From contig NZ_CP101717.1 of the NCBI RefSeq assembly GCF_030643825.1, positions 2,439,673 to 2,503,672 of the forward strand: a DNA stretch of 64,000 nt. The letters are read 5' to 3'. Source of the DNA: Salinispirillum sp. LH 10-3-1. GTDB taxonomy: Bacteria > Pseudomonadota > Gammaproteobacteria > Pseudomonadales > Natronospirillaceae. The position numbers and the translations under genes are program-made. Position 1 is the stretch's first letter; each line of letters opens with the position of its first letter. Below are positions 17,802-24,983 of the stretch, piece after piece. The notes beneath the pieces were generated by a model. It ran no database searches, was not told the DNA's origin, and saw only the letters and a list, made by a program, of their open reading frames with translations.

Positions 17802-18641
17802 CTATGCTTCGCCTTCTTTATAGAAATTCTTGTACACATAATTCGTCGCTTCTACAAAACCATCTACGCTGCCGCAGTCAAATCGGGTTCCTCTGAATTT
17901 GTACGCCATGACGCAGCCATCTTTCGCCTGCTGCAAAAGTGCATCCGTTAACTGGATCTCATCGTTCTTACCCGGTTTGGTGTTGCGGATGATGTCGAAA
18001 ATATCCGGCGTCAAAATGTAGCGCCCGATGATGGCCAGATTCGACGGCGCGGTGCCTTTAGCGGGCTTCTCCACCATGTTGTCGACGCGATACAGGCCGT
18101 CTTTCATGGCTTCCCCGGCTATCACACCGTACTTGTGGATTTCATCGTCGGGGACTTCCATCACCGCCACGATGCTGCAACGAAATTGTTTATAGATTTT
18201 TACCATCTGCGCCATCACGTTGTCTTCGCCAGGCAGTGGCAAGCACAGGTCATCCGCCAGTACGACCCCGAAGGCTTCGTTACCAATCAGGGTTTCACCG
18301 GTCAGGATGGCGTGACCCAGGCCTTTCATCTCCGCTTGGCGTGTGAAAGAAAACTGCGCGTTCGCCATAACGTGACGGATGGACTTCAAGTAGCTTTCTT
18401 TACTCGAGCCGGAGATTTGATGCTCCAGTTCGTAGGAAATATCAAAGTGGTCAGCAATGGCACGCTTACCGCGCCCGGTTACAAAACCGATTCGCTTCAG
18501 GTCAGCCTCAATGGCTTCCTCTACCCCATATTGCACTAGGGGTTTGTTCACCACCGGCATCATTTCTTTGGCCAAGGCTTTGGTGGCAGGCAAGAAGCGC
18601 GTACCGTAACCCGCAACGGGAAATAGGCATTTATTGATCAT
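17802..18641 (-). CDS. galU: UTP-glucose-1-phosphate uridylyltransferase
   Basis: A 279-residue nucleotidyltransferase making UDP-glucose from UTP and glucose-1-phosphate. The N-terminal GYGTRFLPATKALAKEMMP motif, the ADDLCLP segment and the FDCGSVDGFVEA block identify GalU. Length is normal (no C-terminal extension). It is divergent from the GH13 phosphorylase gene. In this locus the UDP-glucose could feed glucosyl-3-phosphoglycerate synthesis, besides cell-wall glycans, and phosphorolysis by the neighbouring GH13 enzyme would return glucose-1-phosphate to GalU. Confidence 0.95.
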   Translation of the reverse strand: MINKCLFPVAGYGTRFLPATKALAKEMMPVVNKPLVQYGVEEAIEADLKRIGFVTGRGKRAIADHFDISYELEHQISGSSKESYLKSIRHVMANAQFSFTRQAEMKGLGHAILTGETLIGNEAFGVVLADDLCLPLPGEDNVMAQMVKIYKQFRCSIVAVMEVPDDEIHKYGVIAGEAMKDGLYRVDNMVEKPAKGTAPSNLAIIGRYILTPDIFDIIRNTKPGKNDEIQLTDALLQQAKDGCVMAYKFRGTRFDCGSVDGFVEATNYVYKNFYKEGEA

Positions 18642-18737
18642 CTTAATTCCTTCTCAATTTCTGGTATCTCTGTTACCCGAGCAATTGCCATGCCGGGGCA
18701 TAAAAACTGCATAGTGTATGCCGAGGAGGCTTTACCT

Positions 18738-20486
18738 ATGGATACAGCATTATTAGCGTCACGCCTGACCGCTCTCTGCCAAAGCATCTACCCTGACAAG
18801 GTGGTGCAGCGAATTGTCCCACAGATCATCAGCATGGTCGATGATGGTGCTTCGCACCACAATGGTGCAATCGTACCTGCATTGTCGGAGCGCAGTGTCT
18901 TGTTGATTACCTACGGCAACAGTGTGTTGCACGACGGCGAGAAGCCACTAGCGACGTTACAGCGCTTTGTCGAACGCCACGTACCCGAGATGACGCACGT
19001 TCACATACTACCCTTCTTTCCTTACAGTTCTGATGACGGTTTTTCGGTGATCGACTATTTGATGGTCGACCCCGGGCTCGGCGATTGGTCCGACATCGCT
19101 GCTTTGGGTGAACAACGGGAGCTGATGTTCGATTTTGTGTTGAACCATATTTCACGCGAGAGCGTCTGGTTCGCCGACTATGTATCCAACCACCCGCCGG
19201 GCAACCAATACTTCATCGAGATGCCGCCCGAAACCGACGTGCGTCAGGTTGTGCGGCCCCGCAGCCAAGCCTTGCTGACACCTATTTATACCCGGCGCGG
19301 TGTGAGCCACGTTTGGGCCACGTTCTCGCCGGATCAAATCGACCTGAACTACGAAAACCCCGACGTATTGCTGGACATGATTGGCATCTTCATCACCTAC
19401 CTCAACAAGGGCGCAAGCTTGACGCGTCTGGATGCCGTGGCCTTCTTATGGAAAACACTAGGGACTCGCTGCGTCCACCTGCCGCAAACGCATGCGGTGG
19501 TGAAACTGTTGCGCGTCATTAACGACGCCGTGCGTCCCGGCAGCTTGTTGATTACCGAGACCAACGTGCCACACGAGGAAAACCTGTCGTATTTCGGCTC
19601 GGTGATCGACGATCCAGAGGCTCCCGAGCAAAAAGTCGGAGATGAGGCGCATTTGGTCTACCAGTTCGCCCTGCCCCCGCTCATCCTGTACACCATGAAC
19701 CGCGGCAACGCCGACCTGTTGACCAACTGGGCGCAGTCGCTCGCCCCGCCACCGCCGGGATGTACTTTCTTGAATTTTACCGCCTCGCACGACGGCATCG
19801 GTTTGCGGGCCTTGGAAGGCATTCTGCCGGAGCATGAAATCAGCAGCCTGATCGATTCCATGCAGCAGTTCGGTGGCTACGTCAGCATGAAAGCCAACGC
19901 CGACGGCACCGACTCACCCTATGAAATCAACATCAGCTATTTCGATGCCATGATGGGCACACGCCGTGGCCCGGACAGCCTGCAAATTAATCGTTTTCTC
20001 TGCGCGCAAAGCATCATGATGGTGTTACAAGGCCTACCGGCGTTTTACATCCACTCATTATTGGGCACACCGAATGACCAACGCGGCGTGGAAGTCACCG
20101 GTCGCCTACGTTCTATTAACCGGAAGAAATGGCAGCTTACTGAGCTGGAAACCGAGTTGGAGAAACCGCAATCGGCGCAGCACTTGGTGCATCATGAATT
20201 GCGGCGGCGTATTCAGGTACGACAATCGCACCCCGCCTTTAGCCCAGAGGCCACGCAGAAGGTGTACGATTTGGATTCGCATTTGTTTATTGTCCAGCGC
20301 GGGGCAGGGTTAGATTCCGTCTGCTGCCTGTTCAACACTTCAACCCAAGACGTGGATTTGCCCTTGGTGAAAGTGATGCACCAAACGGACGGACAAGTGC
20401 TTGATGTGCTGACCGGGCAACGACATCCGCTGGAAAAAACGGTGACGTTATTGCCCTATCAAGCCATGTGGTTGCGTGTGGTGTGA
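18738..20486 (+). CDS. GH13_18 sugar phosphorylase (glucosylglycerate or sucrose phosphorylase type)
   Basis: A 582-residue alpha-amylase-superfamily enzyme of the sucrose phosphorylase branch. Visible are DFVLNHIS, the IDLNYENP segment, the nucleophile aspartate in TRLDAVAF (D232), the acid/base glutamate in ITETNVPH (E274) and NFTASHDGIG with the transition-state aspartate. The subfamily includes sucrose, sucrose-6-phosphate, glucosylglycerol and glucosylglycerate phosphorylases. The neighbouring gpgS-like and phosphatase genes favour glucosylglycerate phosphorylase (inference). Start ATG 18738 has GAGGAGG eight bases upstream; the frame is open to 18690 without one. Cytoplasmic, no signal peptide. 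Confidence 0.8.
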   Translation: MDTALLASRLTALCQSIYPDKVVQRIVPQIISMVDDGASHHNGAIVPALSERSVLLITYGNSVLHDGEKPLATLQRFVERHVPEMTHVHILPFFPYSSDDGFSVIDYLMVDPGLGDWSDIAALGEQRELMFDFVLNHISRESVWFADYVSNHPPGNQYFIEMPPETDVRQVVRPRSQALLTPIYTRRGVSHVWATFSPDQIDLNYENPDVLLDMIGIFITYLNKGASLTRLDAVAFLWKTLGTRCVHLPQTHAVVKLLRVINDAVRPGSLLITETNVPHEENLSYFGSVIDDPEAPEQKVGDEAHLVYQFALPPLILYTMNRGNADLLTNWAQSLAPPPPGCTFLNFTASHDGIGLRALEGILPEHEISSLIDSMQQFGGYVSMKANADGTDSPYEINISYFDAMMGTRRGPDSLQINRFLCAQSIMMVLQGLPAFYIHSLLGTPNDQRGVEVTGRLRSINRKKWQLTELETELEKPQSAQHLVHHELRRRIQVRQSHPAFSPEATQKVYDLDSHLFIVQRGAGLDSVCCLFNTSTQDVDLPLVKVMHQTDGQVLDVLTGQRHPLEKTVTLLPYQAMWLRVV

Positions 20487-20489
20487 GCC

Positions 20490-20737
20490 TAATGTAGTGA
20501 CCGGCATGACTGAACCTCGTCTGGGTGGCGGGTATGAATACCCGCCCTTGTATCTCTCCAGGTGAGGTGATTAGCTATCACTATAACCGTGAAGTGAGTG
20601 AGGACGTACCTGCCCTGAGTGCAGTGACGACTGAAACGTAGATTGTCCCCTCACTTCGTTTATCTCTTAAACTGAATGGTATCCAAGCGCCTTTCCAGTG
20701 GAAAGTGATGCTGTATGTACAAGGGGAGTGGAGCGAG
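20490..20737 (+). ncRNA. Structured left end of the IS110 element, candidate bridge RNA
   Basis: This 250-bp stretch between the phosphorylase stop and the transposase start has no gene. It contains a hairpin with an 8-bp GC-rich stem (20527-20534 with 20539-20546, TGAA loop), a long-range pairing of GAAGTGAG (20591-20598) with CTCACTTC (20650-20657), and a 6-bp hairpin right before the transposase (20691-20705). IS110-group elements encode their guiding bridge RNA in the left noncoding end, so this is the place to expect it. The exact element boundary was not found. Confidence 0.4.
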
Positions 20738-21717
20738 ATGGTTGCTTACGTTGGTATTGATGTCAGCAAAAGCAAAATTGACCTGTGCTGGTTGCGCGAC
20801 GCAACGGGCAAAAAAGTAAAAACGAAAGTGTTTAAGAACAGTGACTTTCACCTGATCAGTCAGTGGCTAGCGAAGTCGATTGATATGAGCCCAGAGTCCG
20901 TTCATATCACACTGGAAGCCACCGGTGTTTATCACGAAGGCCTCGTGTATCACCTGCATGAACAAGGCTATCGGGTGTTTGTAGCCAACCCCGGAAAGGC
21001 AAATCTGTTTGCCAAGTCTCATGGTATGACGCACAAGACCGATAAGTCTGATGCAAAACTGCTGGCAAAGTACGGTGCCAGTGAGCCTGCCAACTTACAT
21101 CGCTGGGAGCCGGATCCGCCAGAAGTGCGAGAGCTGAAAGCTATTTCACGGCGGTTACATGCACTAGAAAAAGACCGTCAGCGTGAGACTAATCGACTGG
21201 AAAGCAGTCAGATATCCGGCGCATCACTGCGAGTGACTGACTCCATTCACGCGATGATCGGCAAATTGGATGACGAGATTGAGCGTCTGAAACAAGACAT
21301 TGATGATCGGATTAAAAAGACCCTGTGCTGGCAACGAATCACGAGCTACTGGGGAGCATCAAAGGTATTGGCGGCGTCATGCAGCGCGAACTGGTCTGCC
21401 TTTTTGCGCGCAAGCGCTTCTGTACGGCGAAACAAGTAGCGGCTTATCTCGGGCTGATCCCTCGACTGTGGGAGTCTGGAGTGCTCAAAGGCAAAACGAC
21501 ACTCAGTAAAACAGGCCCTTCCTACTTGCGTGCCAAGCTGTACATGGCGGCGGTGGCGGCAAGCCAGCACAACCCGGACATTAAGAAACAGAAAAATCGC
21601 CTGCTCGCACAAGGAAAGAGCAGGATGGCCGCCTTAGGAGCGGCCATGCGTAAGCTGGTTCAGATCTGCTTTGGCGTGATAAAGAACCAGCAACCCTATC
21701 AACCTCAGGCGGTTTAG
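20738..21717 (+). pseudogene. IS110-family transposase, split by a -1 frameshift
   Basis: Two frames together make one IS110-type recombinase of about 325 residues. The first part (from ATG 20738) has the DEDD RuvC-like domain: D in YVGIDVSKSKID, E in ITLEATGVY, two D in HKTDKSDAK. The second part, readable from about 21319, has the C-terminal domain with SIKGIGGV and the serine-containing LWESGVLKG. The parts join at the A5 run at 21314-21318: one extra A would give an uninterrupted reading (IKKDPVLATNHELL). So it is probably inactivated, or read by slippage, or a sequencing error. Confidence 0.85.
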
Positions 21718-21895: not shown

Positions 21896-23107
21896 TCAGC
21901 GGTTATCCAACTCCACCGCGTCGTAAATCTGCTCCAACACATCCGGCACCGCCGCCTGAATGCGATTCCAACTAGGAATAAACGGTGTCGCCATCGGGTT
22001 ATCCAAAAACTCCTTGCCCGCATCCATCACATTACTGGCAAACAACTCCACCGCCTCCTCTTCCGCATGGCGATCCACCTTCAACCCGTTGAACAGCGCC
22101 GTATCGTAGTACAGGCCGACAAAATCTAACGCAATACGATAGTAAGTCGCCTTAATGGTACGAATGTGCTCCTCCGTAAACACCTGCCCGTTAGTCGCCA
22201 ACTTACGAAACACCGCTTTACTGATGTCGCGACTCATCTTCGACAAACCCGCTTCCGCATCTTCTTTCGACAACGGCTGATGCTTGTGATCGTAAACGTC
22301 CGCTATGTCGACCTGGCAAATACTGCGATTCGAGTAGTTGCGGAACAACTCACTCAGCACCCCGATCTCCAAACCCCAATCACTCGGAATGCGCATATTG
22401 GGTATCACATCTGTACGCAACGAAAACTCCCCCGACAACGCATAGCGAAAACTGTCGAGATAGTCCAAAAACGGATCAGGCCCACACACCTTGCGTAATG
22501 CACGAATCAACGGCGACACCAACAAGCGGCATACCCGACCGTTCAATTTGTTATCGGCAACGCGCGCGTAATATCCCTTACAGAACTGATAGCGATACGC
22601 TGGGTTGGCTACCGGATAGATCAAGCGAGCCAGCATGCTGCGCGAATAGGTTTTGATGTCGCAATCGTGCATCGCCACCGCTTTCGACTTCCCCGAAGCC
22701 AAAATATAACCGTAGCAATACCACACATTACGGCCCTTACCCATCTCACGCGGAGCCAACTCCAGATCAGCGAGCTGCTTATCAATGGCGCGCAAGCGTG
22801 GGCCGTCTTGCCAAAGAATTTTGACCGGCTGATTCAAGCGCCCAAAGTACTCTTTCGCGTGTTCAAACTCTGCCCGATCAGCGCGGTCGAGCCCAACGAC
22901 GATTTCATTGAGGTAGTTCACCTCTTTGAGTTCCTGCACAATGTTTTCTAAGGCGGGCTGTTGCAGTTCGGAATACAAGGATGGCAACACCAACGCCATG
23001 GGGCTGGTGCGAGAGAAGCTGCGCAGCTCCGCTTCAAGCTGTTCAACCGGGCGATCAACAATGTTGTGCAGGTTGGCAATAACGCCGTTCTGAAAGAAAT
23101 CTGCCAT
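21896..23107 (-). CDS. gpgS: Glucosyl-3-phosphoglycerate synthase (GT81-type)
   Basis: A 403-residue glycosyltransferase. The N-terminal GT-A-like fold with VLPSLYSEL and the DxD-type metal site in AMHDCDIKTYS (DCD at 148-150) match GpgS-family enzymes, which join glucose from an NDP-glucose to 3-phosphoglycerate. RYALSGEFSLRTDV and DWGLEIGVLSE are further family-like segments. It starts 5 bases after the stop of the upstream phosphatase, whose last codons supply GAGGAG as ribosome site, so the two form an operon. Product after dephosphorylation would be glucosylglycerate, a compatible solute. A mannosyl donor is possible but less likely with galU nearby. Confidence 0.85.
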   Translation of the reverse strand: MADFFQNGVIANLHNIVDRPVEQLEAELRSFSRTSPMALVLPSLYSELQQPALENIVQELKEVNYLNEIVVGLDRADRAEFEHAKEYFGRLNQPVKILWQDGPRLRAIDKQLADLELAPREMGKGRNVWYCYGYILASGKSKAVAMHDCDIKTYSRSMLARLIYPVANPAYRYQFCKGYYARVADNKLNGRVCRLLVSPLIRALRKVCGPDPFLDYLDSFRYALSGEFSLRTDVIPNMRIPSDWGLEIGVLSELFRNYSNRSICQVDIADVYDHKHQPLSKEDAEAGLSKMSRDISKAVFRKLATNGQVFTEEHIRTIKATYYRIALDFVGLYYDTALFNGLKVDRHAEEEAVELFASNVMDAGKEFLDNPMATPFIPSWNRIQAAVPDVLEQIYDAVELDNR

Positions 23108-23112
23108 GGAAC

Positions 23113-23922
23113 TTACTCCTCAAGATTCAACCAATACACCAGGCCTTCAGCCCAGCCAGCCGGACCGGCTTGTTTGGTGAAATAGGTTTGGGGTTGCTGA
23201 ATCGCAACATGAGTGCCCTGCGCATTGCGCACGGCCACGGCAAAGTCTGCCGCTTCGAGCATTGGGACGTCGTTACCGCCATCGCCCAATGCGATGGTGA
23301 CACCCTTACCCGGTAAAATGGCCTCTAGCCACGCCATGCCGGTGGCTTTATTGGTGTTGTCACTGAGGTGCAGAAAGCGCCCACCCTGTTGCAGCTGCAG
23401 CCCCTCCGCTTGTGCTGCTCGCATCAGTCGTTTCAGGGCGTCTGCATCGCCTTCCCACAAAATTGGTTCACTGCATTGCCGTTGTTTGGCTTGATGCGCT
23501 TCTTCTGGTGACAGGCCGGTCCACGCGACCACGGTGTCGACGTCAACGTCGTGAAACCCTTGGCAATAAAACCCTTCCGCGAGACGCACAGCATCCAACC
23601 AAGCACAGATGTCCATATATGGCCGACCGAGCAGCTTTCCTGCTACCTCACCTTCTGACCAATCGGCGCGGTGGGTGCGCCACCATTCATGGTTTTTAGG
23701 CAACAGTACCATGCCACCGTTCTCTACCACGGCGAACGTTGGCAGCCCTAAGCGCGGAAACCACTGCAACAGCTCGGCCGCTGTTTTGCTGGTGTTGGGA
23801 ATCACCGGGATGCGCTCCACCTCACACCGTTGCAACACGGGTTTGGCTGCATCCCAGTGGTAATCGTGGTGGTCCAGCAAGGTACCATCCATATCGGTGT
23901 ATATACGCCACGAGTGCGTCAT
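23113..23922 (-). CDS. Glucosyl/mannosyl-3-phosphoglycerate phosphatase (HAD-IIB)
   Basis: A 269-residue HAD phosphatase of the MPGP subfamily: motif I TDMDGTLLDHHDY with the nucleophile aspartate, motif II region PNTSKTAAEL, and motif IV GDGGNDVPMLEAAD. The family removes the phosphate from mannosyl- or glucosyl-3-phosphoglycerate. Its gene is first in the operon with gpgS, so it should yield glucosylglycerate. Twenty-five bases or so upstream of its start lies the predicted transcription start of a sigma-54-type promoter. Confidence 0.88.
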   Translation of the reverse strand: MTHSWRIYTDMDGTLLDHHDYHWDAAKPVLQRCEVERIPVIPNTSKTAAELLQWFPRLGLPTFAVVENGGMVLLPKNHEWWRTHRADWSEGEVAGKLLGRPYMDICAWLDAVRLAEGFYCQGFHDVDVDTVVAWTGLSPEEAHQAKQRQCSEPILWEGDADALKRLMRAAQAEGLQLQQGGRFLHLSDNTNKATGMAWLEAILPGKGVTIALGDGGNDVPMLEAADFAVAVRNAQGTHVAIQQPQTYFTKQAGPAGWAEGLVYWLNLEE

Positions 23923-23957: not shown

Positions 23958-23974
23958 TTCAAGATGGGTGCCAA
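23958..23974 (-). promoter_or_regulatory. Sigma-54 (RpoN) promoter of the phosphatase-gpgS operon
   Basis: On the minus strand the sequence is TTGGCACCCATCTTGAA. The -24 element TTGGCAC is a full match and the -12 element TTGA has GG-N10-GA spacing against the consensus GG-N10-GC, so there is a single deviation at a key position. The expected start point is near 23947, about 25 bases before the ATG at 23922. Confidence 0.6.
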
Positions 23975-24004
23975 CGCCTATCCATGCAGCTTTGCGCGCT
24001 ACTC

Positions 24005-24019
24005 GCACCACTTCAGTGC
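24005..24019 (-). promoter_or_regulatory. NtrC-like box 1
   Basis: GCACCACTTCAGTGC has the GCAC-N7-GTGC form of NtrC enhancer sites. It is centred about 65 bp upstream of the predicted sigma-54 start point of the phosphatase-gpgS operon. Confidence 0.55.
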
Positions 24020-24047
24020 CTTCAATTGAGCACGCGGCGGGCAAAAT

Positions 24048-24062
24048 GCACCATATCAGTGC
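24048..24062 (-). promoter_or_regulatory. NtrC-like box 2
   Basis: GCACCATATCAGTGC again has the GCAC-N7-GTGC form and is 43 bp (about four helical turns) from box 1, centred near -108. Pairs of sites like this are typical of NtrC enhancers. It is also upstream of the divergent gene at 24207, which may share it. Confidence 0.55.
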
Positions 24063-24206: not shown

Positions 24207-24983
24207 ATGAGCAGCATCATTCCCGTCCTCTTGGTGGTCGTAGCCGTTGTCGTAATTGGCGTCATGGGTTACATGCACTTCAAATTCGGCAGCAGCAAGT
24301 CGAAGCGTGAACAGCTCTTGCAGATCAGCAACGATACTAAGAAGCTGCAAAATTTACTGCGCACCATGCCGGGCAACTACCTGTCGAAAGATCTGCGCGA
24401 CTTCATGTACCGCACCATGATCAACAACTACCGCACCCTGATTAAAGAAGACAAGAAAAGCCGCTTCCTGCAATCTGACTTGAACGAAGTCACGGCCCAG
24501 CGCCAAGCCTTTTTGGAAGGCAAGCTCAAGCCGCCGTCAGAACCGGTAATTGAAGTAGAACACGCCAACAACGCCCGAGCCGGTTTAAAGTCACTGTACG
24601 GGCATATCAAAGCCGCCTATCAGCAACGTCAACTTAAAGGCCAAGAGGCCCAGGCCCTAATTGGAGAGGTGGAGCACCGTTTAGTCATTACCGCCGCCGA
24701 CTTCTTCCGGTCACGTGCCCGCCATGCACACAAGAAAAAGCGCTACCGTGAGGCCATGGCCTTATGGCGCAAATCCATCGAAAATATCGCGTCATCCAAG
24801 TTTGTTGGCCAATACAAACAACGTATTCTCGAAGGGAAAACCAAGATCAAAGAAATAGAGAAAGAGTGGAAAGAGCAGAATAAAGCTGCGGCTGAAGCTC
24901 GCTCCGAAGTGCTGGCAGAAAAGTTGGATGAATGGACCAGTGCCGAGGATGAATGGAAGAAAAAGCAAGTCTACGACGACTGA
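24207..24983 (+). CDS. Membrane-anchored coiled-coil protein of unknown function
   Basis: A 258-residue protein with one N-terminal membrane helix (IPVLLVVVAVVVIGVMGYMHF, residues 5-25) and a long, basic, helical cytoplasmic part rich in K, R, E and Q, ending in an acidic-basic C-terminus. A middle segment (FFRSRARHAHKKKRYREAMALWRKSIE) looks like a TPR-type helix pair. I do not recognise the family. It is divergent from the phosphatase-gpgS operon and shares the 284-bp intergenic space with the NtrC-like boxes; a TTTAAAC/GTTTAAA inverted repeat lies at 24171-24187 just before it. Confidence 0.7.
   Translation: MSSIIPVLLVVVAVVVIGVMGYMHFKFGSSKSKREQLLQISNDTKKLQNLLRTMPGNYLSKDLRDFMYRTMINNYRTLIKEDKKSRFLQSDLNEVTAQRQAFLEGKLKPPSEPVIEVEHANNARAGLKSLYGHIKAAYQQRQLKGQEAQALIGEVEHRLVITAADFFRSRARHAHKKKRYREAMALWRKSIENIASSKFVGQYKQRILEGKTKIKEIEKEWKEQNKAAAEARSEVLAEKLDEWTSAEDEWKKKQVYDD

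Follow-up and report, generated by a model that had tools for sequence, protein, structure and literature searches.

Under nitrogen starvation, glucosylglycerate accumulates and can take the place of glutamate (PMC11009771; PMC11020310), in agreement with the first-pass annotation of the present DNA, which had stated that this solute builds up under nitrogen limitation in some bacteria. In marine Synechococcus, GpgS is up along with nitrogen-stress proteins, and glucosylglycerate replaces glutamate (PMC11020310, citing Klaehn et al. 2010). GlnR of Mycobacterium smegmatis binds at MSMEG_5084, for which the expression column reads 27.1 under nitrogen limitation (PMC3662644), and MSMEG_5084 is the gene for glucosyl-3-phosphoglycerate synthase (PMC2674218). 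The presence of GlnR at a mycobacterial gpgS thus gives nitrogen control of the pathway a precedent, by another regulator. Direct control by RpoN and NtrC had been described in the annotation as not well documented. This stands for the open-access literature searched, which gave no report of NtrC/RpoN control of glucosylglycerate synthesis, and a large survey of sigma-54 regulons does not mention such control (PMC12316311). It does not extend to GlnR, whose control of gpgS is documented.

We describe here a gpgP-gpgS operon from a 64,000-nucleotide stretch (the window) of the genome of Salinispirillum sp. LH 10-3-1, a bacterium of marine type. As in M. smegmatis, a master nitrogen regulator is predicted to act at a gpgS gene, but the mycobacterial system relies upon an OmpR-type GlnR rather than NtrC and sigma-54, and its gpgS is distantly related and has a product that also feeds methylglucose lipopolysaccharide. 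The cyanobacteria differ in having other nitrogen regulators, and their promoter is not of the gpgP type. In architecture, the gpgP region resembles the NtrC-activated promoters of glnA and glnK-amtB, with which it shares the GG-N10 geometry of the -24/-12 element, GCAC-N7-GTGC dyads 40 to 140 bp upstream of the -24 element, and ntrBC and rpoN in its own genome. Unlike these, it has GA at -12 and serves an osmolyte operon rather than nitrogen uptake or assimilation. The layout had been read in the annotation as that of an NtrC-activated promoter. Its arrangement, rarity, and conservation, together with the presence of ntrBC and rpoN, support this reading, and it is very probable on these sequence grounds that an NtrC-activated sigma-54 (RpoN) promoter drives gpgP-gpgS.

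The first gene of the operon, gpgP (23113..23922, minus strand), encodes a glucosyl-3-phosphoglycerate phosphatase-like HAD protein with 211 bits against TIGR01486 (MPGP; cut-off, 164.75). It is followed by gpgS (21896..23107, minus strand), encoding a glucosyl-3-phosphoglycerate synthase (NF040724 GpgS, E = 1.5e-104; PDB GpgS chains, E = 2.4e-4). The GpgS score of 350 bits is below the NF040724 equivalog cut-off of 700, and thus its substrate is assigned from family and context; gpgS and a gene for a phosphatase of the MPGP/GPGP family stand together, as in the glucosylglycerate biosynthesis operon. Two further genes of the locus are galU (17802..18641, minus strand), encoding UTP-glucose-1-phosphate uridylyltransferase (TIGR01099, 378 bits; cut-off, 326.8), and ggaP (18738..20486, plus strand), encoding a GH13 sucrose/glucosylglycerate phosphorylase-like protein (TIGR03852, E = 4e-56; matches to PDB sucrose/glucosylglycerol phosphorylases) with a predicted start at 18738 that follows GAGGAGG. 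GalU plausibly supplies the donor, UDP-glucose, to GpgS, and GgaP plausibly acts in turnover. Between ggaP and gpgS lies an IS110-type transposase in two overlapping frames (20705-21439 and 21325-21717), which looks like a frameshifted insertion sequence.

A putative sigma-54-type promoter, TTGGCACCCATCTTGA, precedes gpgP on the minus strand (23959..23974; GG-N10-GA) and is supported by its score and by conservation in orthologues. Read from 23974 to 23959, it has GG and the conserved G of the -12 element with ten bases between them, as had been reported from the first reading of the sequence. It scores 13.6 bits of a possible 20.7, and the best antisense score is 5.1, with a matrix that, like that for the NtrC boxes, was written by hand from general consensus knowledge and not trained on these data. 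If A23959 is taken as -12, the predicted transcription start is at about 23947, which places the gpgP ATG (23922) 25 nt downstream. The distance of about 25 bases given earlier for the element is thus that from the predicted start to the ATG; the end of the element itself is separated from the ATG by about 35 to 36 nt. At -12, the site has GA instead of the consensus GC. GA is also found in the best orthologue sites of Alteromonas arenosi, Neiella, and Vibrio, and GC is found in most other orthologues. A check of the sequence for a sigma-70 promoter facing gpgP gave no match.

Upstream of this element are two exact GCAC-N7-GTGC dyads: GCACTGAAGTGGTGC (24005..24019; 24019 to 24005 in minus-strand reading), centered at about -65, and GCACTGATATGGTGC (24048..24062; 24062 to 24048 in minus-strand reading), centered at about -108. 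Their positions and their center-to-center distance of 43 bp are confirmed as first reported. The box pair of the enteric glnA gene is about 32 bp apart, compared with 43 bp at gpgP. In orthologues, which come from related genomes and are not independent, the spacings of paired boxes group near 30, 40, and 51 bp. These correspond to approximately three, four, and five helical turns and match, as expected, predicted binding of dimers on one face of the helix.

The dyads lie within a 284-bp intergenic region shared with a divergent gene (24207-24983, plus strand). The product of this gene is probably anchored in the membrane and matches nothing in Pfam or NCBIfam, and the gene adjoins an aminotransferase gene in some relatives. 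The boxes could in principle serve this gene instead of gpgP, and, in addition to the shared region, the retention of the neighbor in a few relatives can be cited for this. However, the best sigma-54 score toward the gene at 24207 is 5.1 bits, and the boxes and sigma-54 sites follow the glucosylglycerate operon where the neighbor is not adjacent, so we regard this explanation as very improbable. As checked candidates, the divergent gene as target and a sigma-70 promoter are thus both unsupported.

Single motifs occur in the window at the level expected by chance (four GCAC-N7-GTGC dyads versus 2.3 expected, which is not significant, and 85 loose sigma-54 matches versus 98 expected) and therefore cannot carry the promoter claim. 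Such counts would suit a chance resemblance. Against this, two dyads never arose in 20,000 dinucleotide shuffles of the intergenic region, and an equal sigma-54 score was reached in 171 of the 20,000. Over the whole 3.47-Mb genome, the exact twin dyad is present at only two places, before gpgP-gpgS and directly before ntrBC, and a reversed control pattern is absent. The combination of a dyad with TGGCNY-N6-TGM within 10 to 40 bp occurs once genome-wide, before gpgP-gpgS. Given this rarity and the conservation described below, coincidence is the least probable of the explanations considered.

The pattern searches covered the whole genome, and a scan for composites (a sigma-54 score no lower than 11.5, accompanied 25 to 180 bp upstream by a box scoring 16.5 or more) covered 1.29 Mb (37% of the genome). 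This sample was mostly even-stepped and is not a random draw, since some stretches were shifted to take in box matches and since the window and the regions of ntrBC and amtB are all part of it. Eight composites were found. Those at promoter positions belong to glnA (657823), glnK-amtB (226468), an operon containing nirB (1632726), and, inside the window, galU and gpgP; another precedes an NMT1-type ABC transporter (1856554), and two are within genes and are probably noise (177479 and 2482025). Textbook NtrC targets are thus picked up by the scan, and with them the glucosylglycerate operon.

The genome encodes the regulators that such a promoter would need, namely, NtrC (TIGR01818, 737.7 bits; cut-off, 558.6), RpoN (491.6 bits; cut-off, 277.35), and NtrB (NF008293, 359.8 bits; cut-off, 240), and has NtrC-type boxes also at glnA, ntrBC, and glnK-amtB. 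The twin dyads of ntrBC (about 647650-647707) are 41 bp apart and directly ahead of ntrB, and this region has no strong sigma-54 site, which suggests that NtrC autoregulates ntrBC at a promoter of another type.

Conservation was assessed in 97 relatives, of which 56 have gpgS. In all 56, gpgP precedes gpgS, and a GH13 phosphorylase-like gene is usually next. Many of the orthologous operons (e.g., those of L034, L058, and L071) begin with a gene for a P-loop kinase approximately 300 aa long, which has motifs that fit glycerate kinase and weak kinase matches in curated libraries; it is likely a glycerate kinase, perhaps recycling glycerate. Promoters were anchored on the first gene of each operon, because anchoring on gpgP missed the sites of operons in which the kinase gene or galU comes first; in these, the sigma-54 site is ahead of that first gene. 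At thresholds of at least 11.5 bits for sigma-54 and at least 17 for the NtrC box, sigma-54 sites were found in the sense direction in 40 of the 56 orthologous operons of the order, compared with 3 of 56 in the antisense direction and 20 of 284 other genes (7%). NtrC boxes precede 25 of the 56 operons and 4 of the 284 other genes (1.4%). When one genome per genus was retained (35 genera), approximately 22 had a sigma-54 site (Fisher P of ~1e-13) and approximately 14 had an NtrC box (P of ~1e-11). The search of related genomes proposed with the annotation thus found both motifs conserved before the orthologues.

In a set of 78 named genomes, some of which are also among the 56 operons, 50 had a sigma-54 site in the sense direction and 2 in the antisense direction, and 30 had boxes. 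Sites were present in Saccharospirillum, Marinobacter, Thalassolituus, Bacterioplanes, Halomonas, Litchfieldella, Onishia, Aliagarivorans, Marinobacterium, and Alteromonas, and most of these ten genera also have boxes. In gammaproteobacteria outside the order, each motif declines to 5 of 38. In five genomes (L226, L231, L238, L240, and L261; Cellvibrio-, Bermanella-, and Neptuniibacter-type genomes and one of Thalassolituus type), NtrC boxes follow the operon's sigma-54 site at a distance of 67 to 124 bp instead of preceding it, and they could possibly be downstream enhancers.

The conservation is not uniform, and two rival explanations bear on this. The two closest gpgS-bearing relatives (L032 and L033) have boxes, and their best sigma-54 scores are 6.0 and 5.8 bits. 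NtrC might bind the dyads and repress or modulate transcription that begins at a different (sigma-70) promoter, as it does at the glnL (ntrB) promoter of enteric bacteria. The nonconsensus -12 element of gpgP and the ntrBC twin boxes described above, likewise without a strong sigma-54 site, are compatible with this explanation. It is nevertheless unlikely, given that no sigma-70 match faces gpgP, that sigma-54 sites over the orthologues are strongly enriched on the sense strand, and that box positions of -65 and -108 fit activation.

The second concerns the activator. Of the orthologous promoters that have a sigma-54 site, approximately half lack a recognizable NtrC box within 380 bp, so that another enhancer-binding protein or degenerate boxes are possible there. 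Strong sigma-54 sites without a box within this distance were seen in L062, L065, L068, L075, and L082, as well as in L043, L045, L073, and L077. The last four and L040, together with the approximately 14 proteins with an NtrC-type central domain in the Salinispirillum genome, would allow a real sigma-54 promoter at gpgP to be worked by a different enhancer-binding protein through similar or other sites. The gpgP dyads, however, closely resemble the ntrBC and glnA boxes of the same genome, which makes this even less likely than use of another promoter and leaves activation by NtrC as the preferred reading.

The divergent galU/ggaP pair is a second candidate region. A sigma-54-type site facing galU, CGGCATGGCAATTGCT (18680..18695, minus strand; 13.7 bits), is the galU member of the eight composites, and a weaker one, GGGCATAAAAACTGCA (18696..18711, plus strand; 10.5 bits), faces ggaP. 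A near-perfect NtrC-type dyad, TGCACCATTGTGGTGCG (18853..18869; score of 20.0 of 20.75), is situated within the start of the ggaP gene, at a distance of 166 bp upstream from the -24 element of galU. Six related galU/ggaP pairs, all from one genus (L338, L340, L346, L347, L349, and L351), follow the same plan. They have a site of 12.9 bits toward ggaP, a dyad with a score of 18.25 to 19.5, and mostly a weak site facing galU. In L339 and L350, in which galU is within the gpgS operon, galU has no sigma-54 site of its own. Among the galU genes of relatives, sigma-54 sites were found for 9 of 30 in the sense direction and 8 of 30 in the antisense direction, a weak enrichment that reflects the presence of sites facing both ways in galU/ggaP pairs. 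The support in relatives thus consists of the box count (8 of 30) and the pair layout conserved in the family. The motifs of the region suggest that it is probably under the same control as gpgP-gpgS in this genome. Together with the layout in relatives, they make it plausible, with less certainty than for the gpgP promoter, that UDP-glucose supply and turnover belong to the same regulon as gpgPS.

We infer NtrC binding, the transcription start, and induction by nitrogen limitation at gpgP, and exchange with glutamate by analogy with the literature on other bacteria. When nitrogen is short, NtrB would phosphorylate NtrC, and dimers of NtrC~P would bind, on one face of the helix, the dyads centered at -65 and -108 and then oligomerize. 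Through its AAA+ domain, NtrC would open the complex of RpoN and polymerase waiting at 23959-23974, after which GpgS and GpgP would synthesize glucosylglycerate. This osmolyte is anionic and free of nitrogen and could serve as a substitute for glutamate. A conserved sigma-54 and NtrC promoter before the gpg genes would mean that the solute is made when nitrogen runs short.

The build-up of glucosylglycerate under nitrogen limitation has long been known, and the open-access texts searched do not settle how it is controlled in proteobacteria. The promoter type itself is classical. We somewhat favor the broader view that the whole of glucosylglycerate metabolism (gpgPS, galU, ggaP, and often the kinase) forms a dedicated branch of the NtrC/RpoN regulon throughout marine gammaproteobacteria, exchanging nitrogen-bearing osmolytes for a nitrogen-free one when nitrogen is short. 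If true, this would represent convergence with the GlnR control seen in mycobacteria. The predictions concern cultured genera, including Marinobacter, Halomonas, Saccharospirillum, and Thalassolituus, and the gpgP promoter would tie nitrogen sensing directly, at the genetic level, to the osmolyte that heterotrophic marine bacteria choose.
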